Below, one piece after another: positions 16,772-35,556 of a stretch of 46,801 bases of DNA. Below the pieces are notes generated by a model that saw only the letters and a list, made by a program, of their open reading frames with translations, had not been told where the DNA came from and searched no databases. The translations under genes and the position numbers were made by a program. Position 1 is the first letter of the stretch. Every line of letters begins with the position of its first letter. The DNA comes from Bacillota bacterium (GTDB lineage: Bacteria; Bacillota; Clostridia; Lachnospirales; Lachnospiraceae). The stretch covers positions 1,367 through 48,167 of the forward strand of contig JAUNDN010000019.1 of NCBI GenBank assembly GCA_030526045.1. Direction: 5' to 3'.

Positions 16772-19138
16772 ATGAAAGAAACAGCATATACTTACAAAAA
16801 TCTGCCGATTCCGGGAGGCGGATATGTGACGGGCTTTTTGTTTCATCCGGAAAAGGAAGATATTCTATATATCAGAACGGATATTGGTGGTTGTTATCGA
16901 TTTGATTATAAGGATAGACATTGGAATTCACTGAGTGAATCAGTTAATATGTTTGATCTTAGCGAGACCTATCCCATTGCAATTGCGGTGGACCCGAAAA
17001 AGCCGGAAAGACTGTATATCGCCAGCGGGACGGATCAAAGCAGTGATGAGAATGGAAAACCGTGGGGAAAGCTTTCTGTTTCCGAAGATTACGGAAACAG
17101 CTTTACCCATCAAAAAATCCCCTTTTATGTACATGGAAACATGAATGGAAGAGGAACCGGTTTTCGTCTTGTTCGGGATCCTTCTACAGAAAATACCCTG
17201 TATTTTGCAAGCCAGAAGGACGGACTCTGGCGAACGGATGATTTGGGCAAATCCTGGGAAAGACTGGAAACAGGTGGTGAAGCCTACATGACCTTTGTGT
17301 GGTGCTCCGAAAATGGGAAAACGCTGATTGCAGGAAGCGCCGGAGTTACTACCGGGAATGAACGGTTTCGCGGTCACAGTCTTTATATTTCTTATGATCG
17401 GGGAGAGCACTTTGAGCGGATGCCAATGCCGGAAAGCATTGAAATGGAAGGCTCTAAATGGAGCGGTTATGTGGCACAACGATACGATTACGACGGCCAT
17501 TATTTTTATTGTACGCTTTCAAATACCGGAAGACATTCCTATGTTACCCAAACAGGCTACAGCTGTGATTCCGGTGATGTGGTCGGCGGAAGAGTAATCC
17601 GTTATGAATTCGGAAATGACGGATACATCAGCGGCTATGAGGACATCACACCTAATTGCGCTGCAGATGAAAGTGGTGTTTATGTCTTTGACAGAGAGGA
17701 TGTTCTTGATTACGGTTTTGGAGGAATTTCCAGCTGCAAGTCGATGCCGGGATTACTGGCTGTCAGTACTCTTTGCCGTAATGAAGGAGATATTTTATAT
17801 ATTTCCCATGATTACGGAAAAAACTGGGAAGTGGCGATGTTTGATTTATCCATCGGAAATCTGCATTTTAAAACCTCCTATATGAAACCCCAATTTAATG
17901 GCGGACATTCACTGCTTCACTGGATGAGTGATGTGAAGATTAATCCCTTTCATCCGGATGAAGTATGGTTTAATAGTGGCACCGGTGTTTTTGTCGGTCA
18001 GAACTTTACGAGGAATGACAGAAGCTTTTGCGACTGCTGTCAAGGAATTGAGGAAACAGTACATCTGAATGTATACAGTCCCGTGGACGGTCCGGTGCAG
18101 GCGCTCGATATTGTAGGAGATTTGGGGGGATTTGCCTTCCAGTCATTTAATGCTCCCTGCGAAAACTCTTTTGCGGACGAAGAGGGGAATAGGTATATAA
18201 CATGTATCAATGCAGATTTTTCTGATCTGCACCCTGATGCTGTAATCGTAACACCTCGTGGAAACTGGACAGGGAAGACGAAGGGAGGCTTGATTCTTTC
18301 AAACGATTACGGACGTACCTTTCATAGAATTCCGCTCCCTTTTGGTATATCAGATTATCTTGATGAGAGATTCAGGATGATTGAATGTCCGAATGTCAAT
18401 TCCGGATGGGTGGCTCTTAGCAGTGACGCAAAGTCTGTTGTGTATTGTGTGGCTGAAGGTATTGATCTTTTTGCTAAGGGCGTGATTGCAAGTAATGACA
18501 GCGGGAAGAATTTTTATAAAGTAAGAATTTATAATCTGGAAAAGGAAGATATATCAAATTCCGCAGAACATTTCAAGGTGTATTCCGATCGGTTAAACCC
18601 CAATGTGTTCTATGGTTTTGGTGATGGCCTGAAATTATTTTTTAGCAGTGACCAGGGAAAAAGCTTTTTTCAGATTACAAAGCCTTATTTTGCCGAACAG
18701 GAATTATGCCTTGGCTTAATTGATTGTGCAAATAAGACAGAAATCCGCGGTGATGGCGGAAAAGAAGGAATCTTTTATGTCGCCTTAGGAAAATTCGGAT
18801 TGTACAAGCTGATATTTTCAAAAAACGCTGAAAAGGAAAATGAAGTAAAGCTTCAAAGGCTATCTGAAAGTGGGGATCAAGTGTATAGAGTCGGTCTGGG
18901 GCTTCTCTCGTCCGAAAGCGGTTACCTTGGCTGTGATAAGGCATTGTACATATGCGGAAGACTGGAAGGTATTTACGGATTCTTTCGGTCCTTCGATGAT
19001 GGACATACATGGGAGAAAATTAATGATGAGCGTCAGCAGTTCGGTGATATCAACAGTATTGACGGTGACAGCAGATGCTTCGGAAGATTTTTTATCGCAA
19101 CAGGCTCCTTTGGACTAAAGTATGGCGAACCGGTGTAG
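16772..19138 (+). CDS. GH74-type beta-glucanase (xyloglucanase-like), no signal peptide
   Basis: This is a 788-residue beta-propeller glycosidase of the GH74 type. At least eight Asp-box motifs of form SxDxGxxW/F are visible, among them SEDYGNSF, TDDLGKSW, SHDYGKNW, SNDYGRTF, SSDQGKSF and SFDDGHTW. The N-terminal segment YIRTDIGGCYRF (Asp37) and the central IVGDLGGF (Asp450) align with the two catalytic aspartates described for GH74 xyloglucanases, so activity is likely. There is no signal peptide, which implies a cytoplasmic enzyme acting on imported oligosaccharides. No sugar transporter or other glycosidase is adjacent. Substrate assignment (xyloglucan or another beta-glucan) is inference. 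Confidence 0.85.
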   Translation: MKETAYTYKNLPIPGGGYVTGFLFHPEKEDILYIRTDIGGCYRFDYKDRHWNSLSESVNMFDLSETYPIAIAVDPKKPERLYIASGTDQSSDENGKPWGKLSVSEDYGNSFTHQKIPFYVHGNMNGRGTGFRLVRDPSTENTLYFASQKDGLWRTDDLGKSWERLETGGEAYMTFVWCSENGKTLIAGSAGVTTGNERFRGHSLYISYDRGEHFERMPMPESIEMEGSKWSGYVAQRYDYDGHYFYCTLSNTGRHSYVTQTGYSCDSGDVVGGRVIRYEFGNDGYISGYEDITPNCAADESGVYVFDREDVLDYGFGGISSCKSMPGLLAVSTLCRNEGDILYISHDYGKNWEVAMFDLSIGNLHFKTSYMKPQFNGGHSLLHWMSDVKINPFHPDEVWFNSGTGVFVGQNFTRNDRSFCDCCQGIEETVHLNVYSPVDGPVQALDIVGDLGGFAFQSFNAPCENSFADEEGNRYITCINADFSDLHPDAVIVTPRGNWTGKTKGGLILSNDYGRTFHRIPLPFGISDYLDERFRMIECPNVNSGWVALSSDAKSVVYCVAEGIDLFAKGVIASNDSGKNFYKVRIYNLEKEDISNSAEHFKVYSDRLNPNVFYGFGDGLKLFFSSDQGKSFFQITKPYFAEQELCLGLIDCANKTEIRGDGGKEGIFYVALGKFGLYKLIFSKNAEKENEVKLQRLSESGDQVYRVGLGLLSSESGYLGCDKALYICGRLEGIYGFFRSFDDGHTWEKINDERQQFGDINSIDGDSRCFGRFFIATGSFGLKYGEPV

Positions 19139-19835
19139 AGAAATGCTGCAATATCAATTGTTAAGAAGTAAGAGAAAAACCATTTCCATTTCTTTTGATC
19201 AAAATATCAATCTGATTGTCAAGGCACCTATGTGGGTGCGTAGAAAGGATATCGACGCTTTTCTGACAGAAAAGGAAGAATGGATTACAGCAACAAAGAA
19301 ACGCTTGAACACTGCAAGGCAAAAAGAACTTTTAACGCGCCTGAAACTGGAAAACGGAGATGTATTAAAGTATCTTGGAGAAAAACTGTCTCTCACAGTG
19401 ATCAGAGAGGAAAGAACGAGGTCAAAGATCAAACGCTTTGAAAATCGTCTTCTTTTCTGGGTTCCCTATGACGCAGATTATGAATATCGCCAAAAACAGT
19501 TGGAGAAATGGTATCGAAAGGAAGCATTTTCTGTAATCAGCAGAAAAGCTGCAGAATATGCCGACATGTTGGGAGTTTCCTTTGAAGGAATCTCTATTAA
19601 GGATCAAAAAAGCCGATGGGGAAGCTGCAGCGGCATGAAAAATCTGAATTTTAATTGGCGTATCATTATGGCACCGGAGGAAGTCTGCGATTATGTAATT
19701 ATTCATGAGCTCTGTCATTTGCGGTTTATGGATCATTCGGTGAACTTTTGGAAACTGGTGTCAGAATTTTGTCCTGAATATCAGCAACGAAAAGCATGGC
19801 TGAAGGAGCATGGTAAAGAATTATATGTGTTTTAG
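19122..19835 (+). CDS. YgjP-like (M48-type) metallopeptidase domain protein
   Basis: This protein carries the YgjP-like metallopeptidase domain. The zinc motif HELCHLRFMDHSVNFW (HExxH plus a downstream His) lies near residue 195, after the typical DQKSRWGSCS segment. The N terminus YQLLRSKRKTISI is the family hallmark. ATG 19122 overlaps the preceding gene by 17 bases. ATG 19143 is the better fit to the family start, with GGTG seven bases upstream. It is a likely cytoplasmic protein, and its substrate is unknown. Confidence 0.85.
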   Translation: MANRCREMLQYQLLRSKRKTISISFDQNINLIVKAPMWVRRKDIDAFLTEKEEWITATKKRLNTARQKELLTRLKLENGDVLKYLGEKLSLTVIREERTRSKIKRFENRLLFWVPYDADYEYRQKQLEKWYRKEAFSVISRKAAEYADMLGVSFEGISIKDQKSRWGSCSGMKNLNFNWRIIMAPEEVCDYVIIHELCHLRFMDHSVNFWKLVSEFCPEYQQRKAWLKEHGKELYVF

Positions 19836-19864
19836 TCATTTCAATTGACGGAATGAGAGGAAAT

Positions 19865-20416
19865 ATGGAGGGATTTGTACCGGGACCTGAATGTGCCTTG
19901 TGTAAGGGAAAATGCTGTAAAGAAAAGGGATGTTCCCTTTCCCCAAAGGATATGTTAAGAACCTTACAGGAAAGAAATAGACTACGGCAAATTGATGAAG
20001 GCAACTTGCGTAAGTTACTTCTTGAACTATTAAAAGAGAATGAAATACAGCCTCTTTATGCAATTGATTATTTTACCACAGAAAATGGCCCCCTTTTTTA
20101 CCTGAGAATGCGTCATAAATGCTACACCTTTATTGGGGTGGATGCTATGGGAGAGTGCTGTGCGCTTACTCCAAAAGGGTGCAGTCTGTCAGAAGAAAAA
20201 AGGCCCAAAGGTGGCCGTTTCTTAAAAAGTATGCCGGATAAACAATGTATCCAGTATTATTCAAGAGAAATGATGATTGATGACTGGACACCCTATCAGG
20301 ATGTTCTTTCTTCCATCTGGAAGGAATTTGAGCCTGAATTTCGCGAAAACGGAACCTTTGACCGTTGTGATGCAGAATATTTCAAATGGATGCGGATACA
20401 GCGAGAAGGAAAATGA
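19865..20416 (+). CDS. Cys-cluster (YkgJ-like) hypothetical protein
   Basis: This is a 183-residue protein with a Cys-rich N terminus (CALCKGKCCKEKGC) and further Cys residues at CYTF, ECCALTPKGC and KQC. The pattern resembles YkgJ-type putative zinc or iron-sulfur binding proteins, and no enzymatic function is known. I chose ATG 19865 because GAGAGG lies just upstream; ATG 19853 is possible and adds four residues. It follows the metallopeptidase by about 30 bases. It lies just upstream of spoIVA, so its transcript may run into that gene. Confidence 0.7.
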   Translation: MEGFVPGPECALCKGKCCKEKGCSLSPKDMLRTLQERNRLRQIDEGNLRKLLLELLKENEIQPLYAIDYFTTENGPLFYLRMRHKCYTFIGVDAMGECCALTPKGCSLSEEKRPKGGRFLKSMPDKQCIQYYSREMMIDDWTPYQDVLSSIWKEFEPEFRENGTFDRCDAEYFKWMRIQREGK

Positions 20417-20426
20417 TATACCAAAG

Positions 20427-20455
20427 TCATAAATAATACCCCTTATACATACATT
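20427..20455 (+). promoter_or_regulatory. Sigma-E promoter of spoIVA
   Basis: A -35 TCATAAA (20427-20433) and -10 CATACATT (20448-20455) are 14 bases apart. The -10 matches the known sigma-E consensus CATACAnT completely, and the -35 fits its ATA core. spoIVA is a classic mother-cell sigma-E gene. The expected start site is near 20462. Confidence 0.85.
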
Positions 20456-20476
20456 GAACTAAGTATGGAAGGGGTA
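20437..20476 (+). promoter_or_regulatory. Inverted repeat that can hide the spoIVA ribosome binding site
   Basis: Outer arms TACCCCTT (20437-20444) and AAGGGGTA (20469-20476) and inner arms CATAC (20448-20452) and GTATG (20463-20467) pair across a 10-base loop. The 3' arm contains the AAGGGG ribosome binding site. The 5' arm overlaps the sigma-E promoter. A transcript starting near 20462 would lack the 5' arm, whereas read-through RNA would contain both. Confidence 0.65.
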
Positions 20477-20481
20477 ATTTT

Positions 20482-21969
20482 ATGGATTTGAATACAAAGA
20501 AAGAATATGATTTATACAAGGATATTCAGCTAAGATGTGGCGGCGAAATCTACATAGGCGTGGTAGGACCGGTAAGAACCGGAAAATCCACCTTCATTAA
20601 GCGTTTCATGGATTTAATGGTACTCCCAAATATGCTTGACGTTTATGAAAAAGAACGTGCTGTTGATGAACTTCCCCAAAGTGCAGGAGGAAAGACTGTT
20701 ACCACAACAGAACCCAAGTTCATTCCAAAAGAGGCGGCTAAACTGACTTTGGGGGAAGGAATGGAGGCAAAGGTTCGGCTAATTGACTGCGTTGGCTATA
20801 TGGTGGAAGGGGCCGGCGGACATATGGAAAATGATGCAGAACGAATGGTAAAGACTCCCTGGCTTTCCGAAGAGATCCCGTTTACTCAAGCTGCCGAAAT
20901 CGGAACCAGGAAGGTGATCAACGATCATTCTACGATTGGTATTGTGGTTACTTGTGATGGAAGTTTCGGAGAAATACCAAGGGCAAATTATGTTCCGGCA
21001 GAGGAGCGCACCGTGAAAGAACTAAAGCAGCTCAGAAAGCCCTTTGTACTTTTAATGAATACTGCAAAGCCCTACAGTGATGAAGCTATAAAGCTTTCAG
21101 AAGAGCTTTCGGCAAAATATGAGGTGCCAGTCATCCCAATCAATTGTGACCAGATGAAAAAGGATGATATTCACCAGATTTTTGAAAAAATCCTCTGTGA
21201 ATTTCCGCTTACCATGATTGAGTTTTATATGCCAAAGTGGGTAGAAATGCTCCCGGCAAATCATAAGATGAAGCTCGATATTATTGAAAGAGTAAAGGAA
21301 ATCATGAAGCAGTATAACTGTATTCGCGATGTCAGGAATCATCCAATATCCGTAGACGGACCATTTATTAAAAAATGTAAGATGGACAGTATTGATATGG
21401 CAGACGGATGCATTAAGGTCTGGCTTGAGGTGGATGATACCTATTACTACGAAATGCTCAGTGAAATGGTAGGTGAATCCATTGACAATGAATACCAGCT
21501 ACTCTCCGTTTTGAAAAATATGGCAAAAATGAAAAAGGAGTATGTAAAAGTACTTCATGCCATTGAATCTGTCAGGCAGAAAGGATATGGCGTTGTAACA
21601 CCGGAGCGGGACGAAATTCGTCTTGATAAGCCTGAGGTTATCAAACATGGAAATAAATTCGGTGTAAAAATACGTGCGGAAAGTCCCAGCATTCATATGA
21701 TACGCGCTAATATCGAAACAGAAATTTCTCCCATTGTAGGTTCACAGGAGCAGGCTCAGGATCTGATTCGTTTTATCACCGACTCCAGTAAAAAGGAAGA
21801 TGGCATCTGGGAAACAAATATATTCGGCAAGTCTGTTGAACAACTTGTTAATGACGGAATTACAGGAAAACTTACGATGATCGGAGACGAAAGTCAGCTG
21901 AAGCTGCAGGAGACCATGCAGAAAATTGTGAATGACTCTAACGGCGGAATGGTATGCATCATTATTTAA
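20482..21969 (+). CDS. spoIVA: Stage IV sporulation protein A
   Basis: SpoIVA is the ATP-hydrolysing protein that polymerises on the outer forespore membrane and forms the basement layer of the spore coat. The Walker A motif GPVRTGKST is near residue 30. The segment RLIDCVGYMVEGAGGH and the C-terminal GGMVCIII are characteristic. The length of 495 residues agrees with the family. The ATG is 7 bases after AAGGGG. Transcription is expected in the mother cell from the sigma-E promoter at 20427, and ends at 21998-22034. Presence of this gene means the organism, or a recent ancestor, forms endospores. Confidence 0.98.
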   Translation: MDLNTKKEYDLYKDIQLRCGGEIYIGVVGPVRTGKSTFIKRFMDLMVLPNMLDVYEKERAVDELPQSAGGKTVTTTEPKFIPKEAAKLTLGEGMEAKVRLIDCVGYMVEGAGGHMENDAERMVKTPWLSEEIPFTQAAEIGTRKVINDHSTIGIVVTCDGSFGEIPRANYVPAEERTVKELKQLRKPFVLLMNTAKPYSDEAIKLSEELSAKYEVPVIPINCDQMKKDDIHQIFEKILCEFPLTMIEFYMPKWVEMLPANHKMKLDIIERVKEIMKQYNCIRDVRNHPISVDGPFIKKCKMDSIDMADGCIKVWLEVDDTYYYEMLSEMVGESIDNEYQLLSVLKNMAKMKKEYVKVLHAIESVRQKGYGVVTPERDEIRLDKPEVIKHGNKFGVKIRAESPSIHMIRANIETEISPIVGSQEQAQDLIRFITDSSKKEDGIWETNIFGKSVEQLVNDGITGKLTMIGDESQLKLQETMQKIVNDSNGGMVCIII

Positions 21970-34063: not shown

Positions 34064-34078
34064 AATCTTGTATAAAAG

Positions 34079-34131
34079 AGCTCCTTTTGCCACATAATGC
34101 TAATAAATGCTTTGTGTGTGCGGAAGGAGCT
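34079..34131 (+). promoter_or_regulatory. Long hairpin covering the GerA-family gene's ribosome binding site
   Basis: AGCTCCTT (34079-34086) pairs with AAGGAGCT (34124-34131). Two U-G pairs, GC/GC and CACA/TGTG with one bulge extend this to roughly 18 bp. The AAGGAG ribosome binding site of the next gene is in the 3' arm. The arm is followed by TTCTTT, so a terminator function for dut is an alternative. Confidence 0.65.
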
Positions 34132-34137
34132 TTCTTT

Positions 34138-35556
34138 ATGAATTCAAATACAATGAGTACATCTCTTTCAGAAAATATGAACTATCTGAACAAGGAACTT
34201 TCAGTTGATACTAATTTTGATGTTGTATACCGTGTAATCAAGGTGGGAGGCCGTAGTGCCTGCATCTACTTTATAGACGGCTTTTGCAAAGATGAGCTGA
34301 TGCAGAAGATGCTCCAATATTTTATGGATATCAAGGATGAAGAAATGCCAAAGGATGCCCATGAAATGTCTAAGACCAGTATGCCCTATGTAGAAGTGGA
34401 CCTGCAGGATGAATGGGAGAAGATCACTTACTTTATTATGTCCGGAGTGTTTGCTCTCTTTATTGACGGATATGACAGGTGTATTCTCATTGACTCCAGA
34501 ACCTATCCTGCCAGAAATGTTTCAGAACCGGAAAAGGATAAGGTCCTTAGAGGCTCCAAGGACGGCTTTGTTGAAACAATTGTCTTTAATACTGCACTGA
34601 TACGAAGAAGAATCAGAAGCACAGAACTTCGGATGGAAATGCTTCATGCCGGTAACAGCTCACAGACCGATATTGTGTTGTGTTATATGGACAGTCGTGT
34701 AGATCATGACTTCCTTAATAAGATAAAGGAGCGTATCAATCAGATAGAGGTAGATGCGCTTACCATGAATCAGGAAAGCCTTGCAGAATGCCTCTATAAG
34801 AAAAAATGGTATAATCCGTTTCCCAAATTTAAATTTACTGAACGTCCTGATACGGCATCCGCACAAATCTTGGAAGGTGATATCGTCATTCTTGTAGACA
34901 ATTCTCCTTCGGCTATGATTACACCAACCTCAATTTTTGATGTTGTTGAAGAGGCGGATGACTATTATTTTCCGCCAATAACAGGAACCTACCTGAGACT
35001 GTCAAGATTTCTCATCGCATTATTAACTTATTTTGTTACGCCAACCTTTCTTTTGCTTATGAAAAATCCGGAATGGATTCCTGCAGGTTTTGAATTTATT
35101 CAGGTTAAGGATACCCAGAATGTACCACTCATCTGGCAATTTCTGATTCTTGAACTTGCCCTGGACGGACTGCGGCTTGCTGCAGTCAATACCCCTAATA
35201 TGCTGAGTACGCCTTTAAGTGTTATGGCAGCGCTGGTACTTGGTGAGTTTTCAGTCAACAGCGGCTGGTTTAACAGTGAGGTCATGCTCTATATGGCATT
35301 TGTGGCAATTGCAAACTATACCCAGGCAAGCTATGAGCTTAGTTATGCCATTAAATTTATGCGTATCCTCAACCTGATCCTGACGGCAATGTTTGGTATC
35401 TGGGGATACATTGCGGGAGTAATTCTATTTATTCTTGCAATTGTAACGAACAGAACCGTATCCGGTAAGAGTTATATCTATCCACTGTTTCCGTTTAACT
35501 TAAAGCAATTGTCCAAAAGGCTTATTCGCTACAGACTGCCGGGAGCGAGAGAGTAA
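34138..35556 (+). CDS. GerA-family spore germination protein (SpoVAF-like)
   Basis: This is a 472-residue spore membrane protein of the GerA family. The N-terminal soluble part carries a domain with VETIVFNTALIRRRIR and DIVLCYMDSRVD. The C-terminal half has about 4-6 helices beginning after the conserved EADDYYFPPITGTYLRLSRF. Its length and start fit SpoVAF-type proteins better than full GerA germinant receptors, and no gerB or gerC partner follows. ATG 34138 is 8 bases after AAGGAG. Upstream in-frame TTG 34087 would lie within the hairpin and is rejected. It lies behind dut on the same strand and ends at a strong terminator. Confidence 0.88.
   Translation: MNSNTMSTSLSENMNYLNKELSVDTNFDVVYRVIKVGGRSACIYFIDGFCKDELMQKMLQYFMDIKDEEMPKDAHEMSKTSMPYVEVDLQDEWEKITYFIMSGVFALFIDGYDRCILIDSRTYPARNVSEPEKDKVLRGSKDGFVETIVFNTALIRRRIRSTELRMEMLHAGNSSQTDIVLCYMDSRVDHDFLNKIKERINQIEVDALTMNQESLAECLYKKKWYNPFPKFKFTERPDTASAQILEGDIVILVDNSPSAMITPTSIFDVVEEADDYYFPPITGTYLRLSRFLIALLTYFVTPTFLLLMKNPEWIPAGFEFIQVKDTQNVPLIWQFLILELALDGLRLAAVNTPNMLSTPLSVMAALVLGEFSVNSGWFNSEVMLYMAFVAIANYTQASYELSYAIKFMRILNLILTAMFGIWGYIAGVILFILAIVTNRTVSGKSYIYPLFPFNLKQLSKRLIRYRLPGARE

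Follow-up and report, generated by a model that had tools for sequence, protein, structure and literature searches.

In phage T4, the long early RNA of the lysozyme gene e hides the ribosome-binding site of that gene, an effect measured at 100-fold; the late promoters are located within the DNA that encodes the 5′ strand, and late RNA therefore escapes the hairpin (PMC3014915). In Bacillus subtilis, a hairpin of 20+ pairs has been proposed to block translation of sigG from RNA that reads through from spoIIG, and this hairpin cannot form in RNA made from the sigG promoter (PMC5942855). Also in B. subtilis, usd has been described as necessary for translation of spoIIID (PMC4474612), and the stem-loop of cmpA works in a way that differs from a read-through lock (PMC13317604).

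We analysed a stretch of 46,801 nucleotides from a Lachnospiraceae genome, here called the window, and in it the leader of spoIVA, a sporulation gene of the spore coat (Table 1). An earlier, sequence-only reading had assigned this gene, and profile matches bore the assignment out. The cysteine-rich gene upstream, for which no Pfam or NCBIfam match was found at E 0.001, stops 65 bp ahead of the spoIVA start codon. No plus-strand terminator between the two genes was listed by a simple scan for loops of 3–8 only. An Rfam search of 20300–20600 gave no family; its sole match was to a miRNA on the other strand, at chance level (E 0.36, 18.9 vs 80 bits). Ahead of spoIVA stand TCATAAA, 14 nt and CATACATT, a spacing within the 14–15 nt of a sigma-E-type promoter. 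We take this to be such a promoter by its consensus, the sigma factor being a prediction, and the start site is presumed from the usual spacing to lie 7 bases past the −10 element.

The letters contain the inverted repeat that the sequence-only reading had described, with AAGGGG in its 3′ arm and CATAC/GTATG as an additional pairing. The two sides of the repeat, AATAATACCCCTT and AAGGGGTAATTTT, are 85% complementary, and the hairpin arms are separated by 24 nt. The upper stem, TACCCCTT (20437–20444) paired with AAGGGGTA (20469–20476), is as had been claimed; overlooked was a lower stem that extends to the start codon, formed by CAAAGTCATAAA (20422–20433) and TTTATGGATTTG (20479–20490), which are 83% complementary. 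Because the lower stem spans these two segments, the spoIVA start codon is paired with the −35 element as well. From these pairings and CATAC/GTATG together it follows that a large part of the promoter has its complement in the spoIVA translation start region. The 5′ arm had further been said to overlap a sigma-E consensus promoter; in agreement, the motif match and the predicted start put the entire arm outside the sigma-E RNA.

Table 1. Features of the spoIVA and gerA-type leaders and their surroundings, in coordinates of the window
Feature	Position	Strand	Remarks
YgjP-type metallopeptidase gene	19122–19835	+	upstream of the cysteine-rich gene, same strand
Upstream gene, 187 aa, cysteine-rich	19853–20416	+	co-directional with spoIVA; presumed source of read-through RNA; from the list of open reading frames
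Whole predicted hairpin of read-through RNA	20422–20490	+	lower stem covers start codon 20482–20484
−35 element TCATAAA	20427–20433	+	sigma-E-type promoter (predicted); second role in pairing with the start codon region
5′ arm TACCCCTT	20437–20444	+	within the promoter spacer; complement of the ribosome-binding site
−10 element CATACATT	20448–20455	+	its CATAC (20448–20452) pairs with GTATG (20463–20467)
Predicted sigma-E start site	20462	+	between the arms; predicted from −10 spacing
3′ arm GTATGGAAGGGGTA	20463–20476	+	includes ribosome-binding site AAGGGG (20469–20474)
spoIVA, stage IV sporulation protein A, 495 aa	20482–21969	+	TIGR02836, 642 bits (NCBIfam); PF09547 (Pfam)
Sigma-G-like promoter of the gerA-type gene (presumed)	TGTATA 34069–34074, 18 nt, CATAATG 34093–34099	+	overlaps the 5′ arm
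Hairpin of the GerA-family germination gene	34071–34140	+	covers ribosome-binding site and start codon

The stretch 20418–20500 was predicted to fold at −22.7 kcal/mol, compared with −11.6 (s.d. 2.7) for its shuffles (z −4.04; 0 of 200 as low). A wider stretch of 161 nt around the leader gave a weaker signal (z −1.83; 9 of 200 shuffles as low), and RNA beginning at 20462 folded weakly, at −4.0 kcal/mol (z −0.56). The predicted cost of opening the ribosome-binding site was 18.0 kcal/mol in read-through RNA vs 2.1 kcal/mol in RNA from ∼20462; shuffles of the leader cost 6.5 (s.d. 2.1), and none of 50 reached 18.0 kcal/mol. By energy prediction, the ribosome-binding site sits in a stable hairpin of the read-through RNA.

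Sequence and computation make it likely, in our judgement, that the leader locks spoIVA against expression by read-through. RNA entering from the upstream genes would have both arms and would fold, burying the ribosome-binding site; the lower stem would bury the start codon as well, and SpoIVA would not be made from this RNA. Sigma-E polymerase would use a promoter that is the DNA of the 5′ arm, and transcription would begin between the arms. The resulting mRNA, with a leader of ∼20 nt, could not form the hairpin and would be translated. We infer the start site, the read-through RNA, the vegetative status of the upstream genes and the effect on translation from the sequence; since the 5′ end and the read-through RNA rest on prediction, so does the mechanism that we infer from them.

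A contig search for spoIVA relatives yielded 266 stretches, the best 80 of which were kept. The spoIVA model found a match in 194 of 299 Lachnospiraceae genomes, and 90 of these were taken with their leaders unseen: the 30 best-scoring and 60 more down the score ranking. The genome from the window's own genus was dropped, leaving 89. Of 172 sequences, 171 allowed a start codon to be placed; one of their leaders was too short, which left 170 for analysis, a set that contains near relatives and counts the window twice (as W and L001). Over these 170, opening the site took a mean of 14.05 kcal/mol for RNA that reads through, 2.81 for the RNA predicted from the sigma-E start and 5.91 for shuffles, and 114 leaders exceeded all 50 of their shuffles.

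A leader was called hairpin-positive when at most 1 of 50 shuffles reached its opening cost and this cost exceeded that of the short RNA by 5 kcal/mol, both thresholds having been set after the energies were seen. By this rule 56 of the 89 other Lachnospiraceae genera were positive and 33 were not. Control genes, with the start of the short RNA assumed at −20, were positive in 7 of 143 cases (one being the gerA-type gene of the window), and gene starts from the window and a 400-kb sample of its genome in 13 of 368. Among spoIVA leaders from other families of the same order, 11 of 50 were positive, some with quite different arms; these 50 include one Lachnospiraceae leader, which was not positive. 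Other Clostridia gave 4 of 50, with a mean opening cost of 4.8 vs 4.4 in shuffles. Each of the latter two sets comprised the 30 best-scoring leaders and 20 for spread, rather than one per genus. The hairpin is therefore common in Lachnospiraceae and sporadic nearby. Four leaders from other families of the order (L200, L191, L183 and L246) had strong hairpins with quite different arms, and with such differences the hairpin may have arisen repeatedly. In three of the 27 aligned close relatives (L018, L024 and L026) the ribosome-binding site was changed and the C-rich spacer arm was gone, and they were still positive by way of other pairing; the rule therefore measures occlusion and not the exact stem. 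Four close relatives (L012, L023, L025 and L134) carried an extra stretch, with another ribosome-binding site, between spoIVA and the usual leader, whose own ribosome-binding site could still be recognised.

Covariation of the arms, which the sequence-only reading had proposed to look for in relatives, proved strong across genera. Because related sequences share history, we chose a swap test, in which the promoter block of a leader was paired with its own ribosome-binding-site block or with that of another genus; all 89 leaders entered, with no selection. Pairing with the own arm came to −15.63 kcal/mol, and permuted pairing to −10.90 (s.d. 0.31); the lowest of 10,000 permutations was −12.04, and 0 of 10,000 were as low as the own arms. 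By this test the arms are maintained by matched changes across the 89 genera. Versions found among genera include TACCCCTT/AAGGGGTA, CAGCCTCTT/AAGGGGCTG and TCCTCCTGC/GCAGGAGGA, and some are longer. A pair count in fixed columns over 27 close relatives gave 83.2% paired vs 82.1% shuffled, with slides of +1 and +2 covarying more; this count does not discriminate, since the 5′ arm shifts relative to the −10 element, and the swap test was used in its place.

These results bear on two other readings of the repeat. The complementarity might be incidental and functionless, a C-rich spacer facing a G-rich ribosome-binding site: such sites are G-rich, and CATAC/GTATG uses the fixed −10 element. We find this scarcely credible, given the matched changes across 89 genera and the low rate in control genes, and given that the segment just upstream of the promoter block paired at only −5.77 kcal/mol (60 leaders, those from which it could be extracted). 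Being a palindrome that spans a promoter, the repeat might instead serve at the DNA level, as an operator bound by a repressor or an activator. This we reject as highly improbable, because the sequence changes between genera while the matching of the arms, as the swap test detects it, persists, behaviour not expected of a sequence-specific DNA site.

The position of the pairing segments was followed in 57 predicted folds, those of the window and the 56 positive genera. Partners of the G run lay at a median of 4–8 nt upstream of the −10 element, inside the spacer. Among close relatives the C block varies in position within the spacer while the −35 and −10 elements stay fixed, and it is therefore not a promoter element. 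Of 27 aligned sequences, the window and its close relatives, 26 keep the −35 element as [AC]ATAA, and a perfect −10 element was present in 56 of 89 genus-level leaders vs 4 of 143 control genes. These promoter data weigh on the idea that all spoIVA mRNA starts further upstream and carries the hairpin, which would then be a general damper of translation. Damper stem-loops do exist in sporulation genes, as at cmpA and in the small sigG hairpin of B. subtilis; given that the hairpins of the window and its aligned relatives contain a sigma-E-type promoter, and given the −10 counts above, we judge a damper very unlikely at spoIVA.

A live rival to the translation lock is termination. The hairpin could be mainly an intrinsic terminator of the upstream gene, which sigma-E RNA would escape for want of the 5′ arm, with the hiding of the ribosome-binding site as a by-product. 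The stem is rich in T at its base, which makes termination conceivable and which a pure translation lock does not need: T made up 0.73 of the bases between ribosome-binding site and start codon where the hairpin was called, compared with 0.42 in the Lachnospiraceae leaders that lack it and 0.31 in controls, and T runs of at least 4 occurred in the same stretch in 37 of 56, 7 of 29 and 6 of 143, respectively. Terminator scores, which are indicative only, had medians of −31 in genus-level and −20 in near hairpin leaders, compared with −91 in control genes (0 of 81 positive). Yet few hairpin leaders scored above zero (3 of 55 at genus level, 10 of 66 among near relatives), and the window scored −42. 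The window does not have a GC-rich stem followed directly by an unpaired U-tract; it has TAATTTTATG after the G run. On average 71% of the T bases in question were paired in the predicted folds, and the start codon was paired in 38 of 57, counts that are conditional on the fold. Moreover, the arms stand 24 nt apart, and a terminator has no need to overlap a ribosome-binding site. Ordinary terminators were seen as well: one lies just upstream of spoIIIAA in the genome of the window, and two leaders not called positive (L029 and L033) have one, GACGGG...CCCGTC TTTTT, just upstream of the −10 element, as if one device took the other's place. We regard termination as the main role of the hairpin as unlikely. 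Lock and termination could also operate jointly, and under either one spoIVA would not respond to transcription from upstream.

A guard against read-through is expected where the upstream gene is co-directional and terminator-free. This association was tested at the 81 of 89 genus-level loci where length-based and homology-based calls of the upstream gene agree, the other 8 being dropped; homology-based calls alone were rejected, as they picked antisense reading frames in near loci. Where the upstream gene was co-directional and terminator-free, 48 spoIVA leaders had the hairpin and 15 did not; where it was reversed or a terminator was present, 2 did and 16 did not (Fisher 8e-7). We also simulated the trait, independently of context, on a FastTree tree of the first 225 residues: 0 of 5000 simulations reached the odds ratio (two-sided, 1 of 5000). 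A stricter tree-based paired test found only 2 pairs on supported branches and hence had no power.

The proposed layout was indeed present at spoIVA; it is not peculiar to this gene, since we saw it at three further sporulation genes. In the window, the gerA-type gene (start 34138; GerA, PF03323) lies 74 bp behind a dUTPase-like gene, and its hairpin, stronger than that of spoIVA, folds at −37.1 kcal/mol (z −7.0; 0 of 200 shuffles). Its promoter we take to be sigma-G-like by consensus. Half of the gerA leaders were positive (15 of 30). The gene spoVT was found among the 13 positives of 368 gene starts; the leader in the window's own genome (L344, 8786–8868) has a sigma-G-like promoter, and 15 of 29 spoVT leaders were positive, one more being too short. 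At spoIIID of the same genome (L382, 1400–1500), with a sigma-E-like promoter and a TTG start, the 5′ arm fills the spacer; together with its 30 relatives, 20 of 31 leaders were positive. For each of gerA, spoVT and spoIIID the swap test gave 0 of 10,000. Own-genome copies are part of these counts, and the relatives were taken from the top of the search ranking.

No such hairpin was found at spoIIIAA, a SASP gene or gpr of the window's genome, the start of gpr being uncertain. A pattern search of this genome, for a sigma-E −10 element with a ribosome-binding site and ATG, gave 30 sites, and only spoIVA among them was positive by the hairpin rule. Many of the other sites open very short frames and hence are probably no real promoters; spoIIID, which begins with TTG, escaped the pattern for that reason. 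Other positives among the 368 gene starts resembled ordinary attenuators, terminators or mis-called starts, and one, recognised by eye, is presumably the carbamoyl-phosphate synthase small subunit. At one minus-strand leader (L343, 8611–8690) a strong hairpin lay over the ribosome-binding site and no sporulation promoter was recognised. Its product resembles an oxidative stress defence family (NF008299; 96 bits, below the cut-off), which we take to be of SIMPL/YggE type.

The link with orientation was absent at gerA, spoVT and spoIIID, where 42 of 71 leaders with a co-directional neighbour and 8 of 16 with a reversed one were positive (p 0.58; three leaders without neighbour left out). At some of these loci, L354 and L389 for example, the reversed neighbour is a long frame.

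We lean towards a regulon-wide device in Lachnospiraceae, in which sporulation promoters double as anti-ribosome-binding-site sequences: sigma-E-type promoters at spoIVA and spoIIID, sigma-G-type promoters at the gerA-type gene and spoVT. If this is true, a sporulation gene that stands behind others would be translated only from RNA made by its own sigma factor, and the device would act as a control on the polymerase from which a message stems. Spore formers must silence sporulation proteins during growth even behind an upstream gene that lacks a terminator, and the layout would be a compact answer, predicting clearly which RNA gets translated. Leader hairpins may also serve as markers for sporulation genes, and for where their transcripts start, in Lachnospiraceae genomes for which there are no RNA data.

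In the open-licence literature we found no report of a read-through lock at spoIVA, spoIIID or spoVT, nor did a broader search of open-licence papers find one of such a lock. In usd–spoIIID, as predicted here, translation depends on RNA upstream of the gene; there a small upstream reading frame is required, whereas here none is invoked and the sigma-E RNA would simply be without the 5′ arm. With sigG the spoIVA leader shares the proposed arrangement of a locked read-through RNA and a free RNA from the gene's own promoter. It differs in that read-through into sigG comes from a sporulation operon, while that into spoIVA would presumably come from genes not known as sporulation genes, and in that sigG is one gene, whereas four genes and two promoter types show the same layout here, across a family. 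T4 gene e, whose late promoters overlap one side of the hairpin and whose late RNA evades the hiding of the ribosome-binding site, has the arrangement predicted for spoIVA; it is a phage gene served by phage late promoters, whereas spoIVA is a cellular development gene for which the effect is predicted. The analysis supports counting the spoIVA leader hairpin with the read-through locks known at T4 gene e and B. subtilis sigG.
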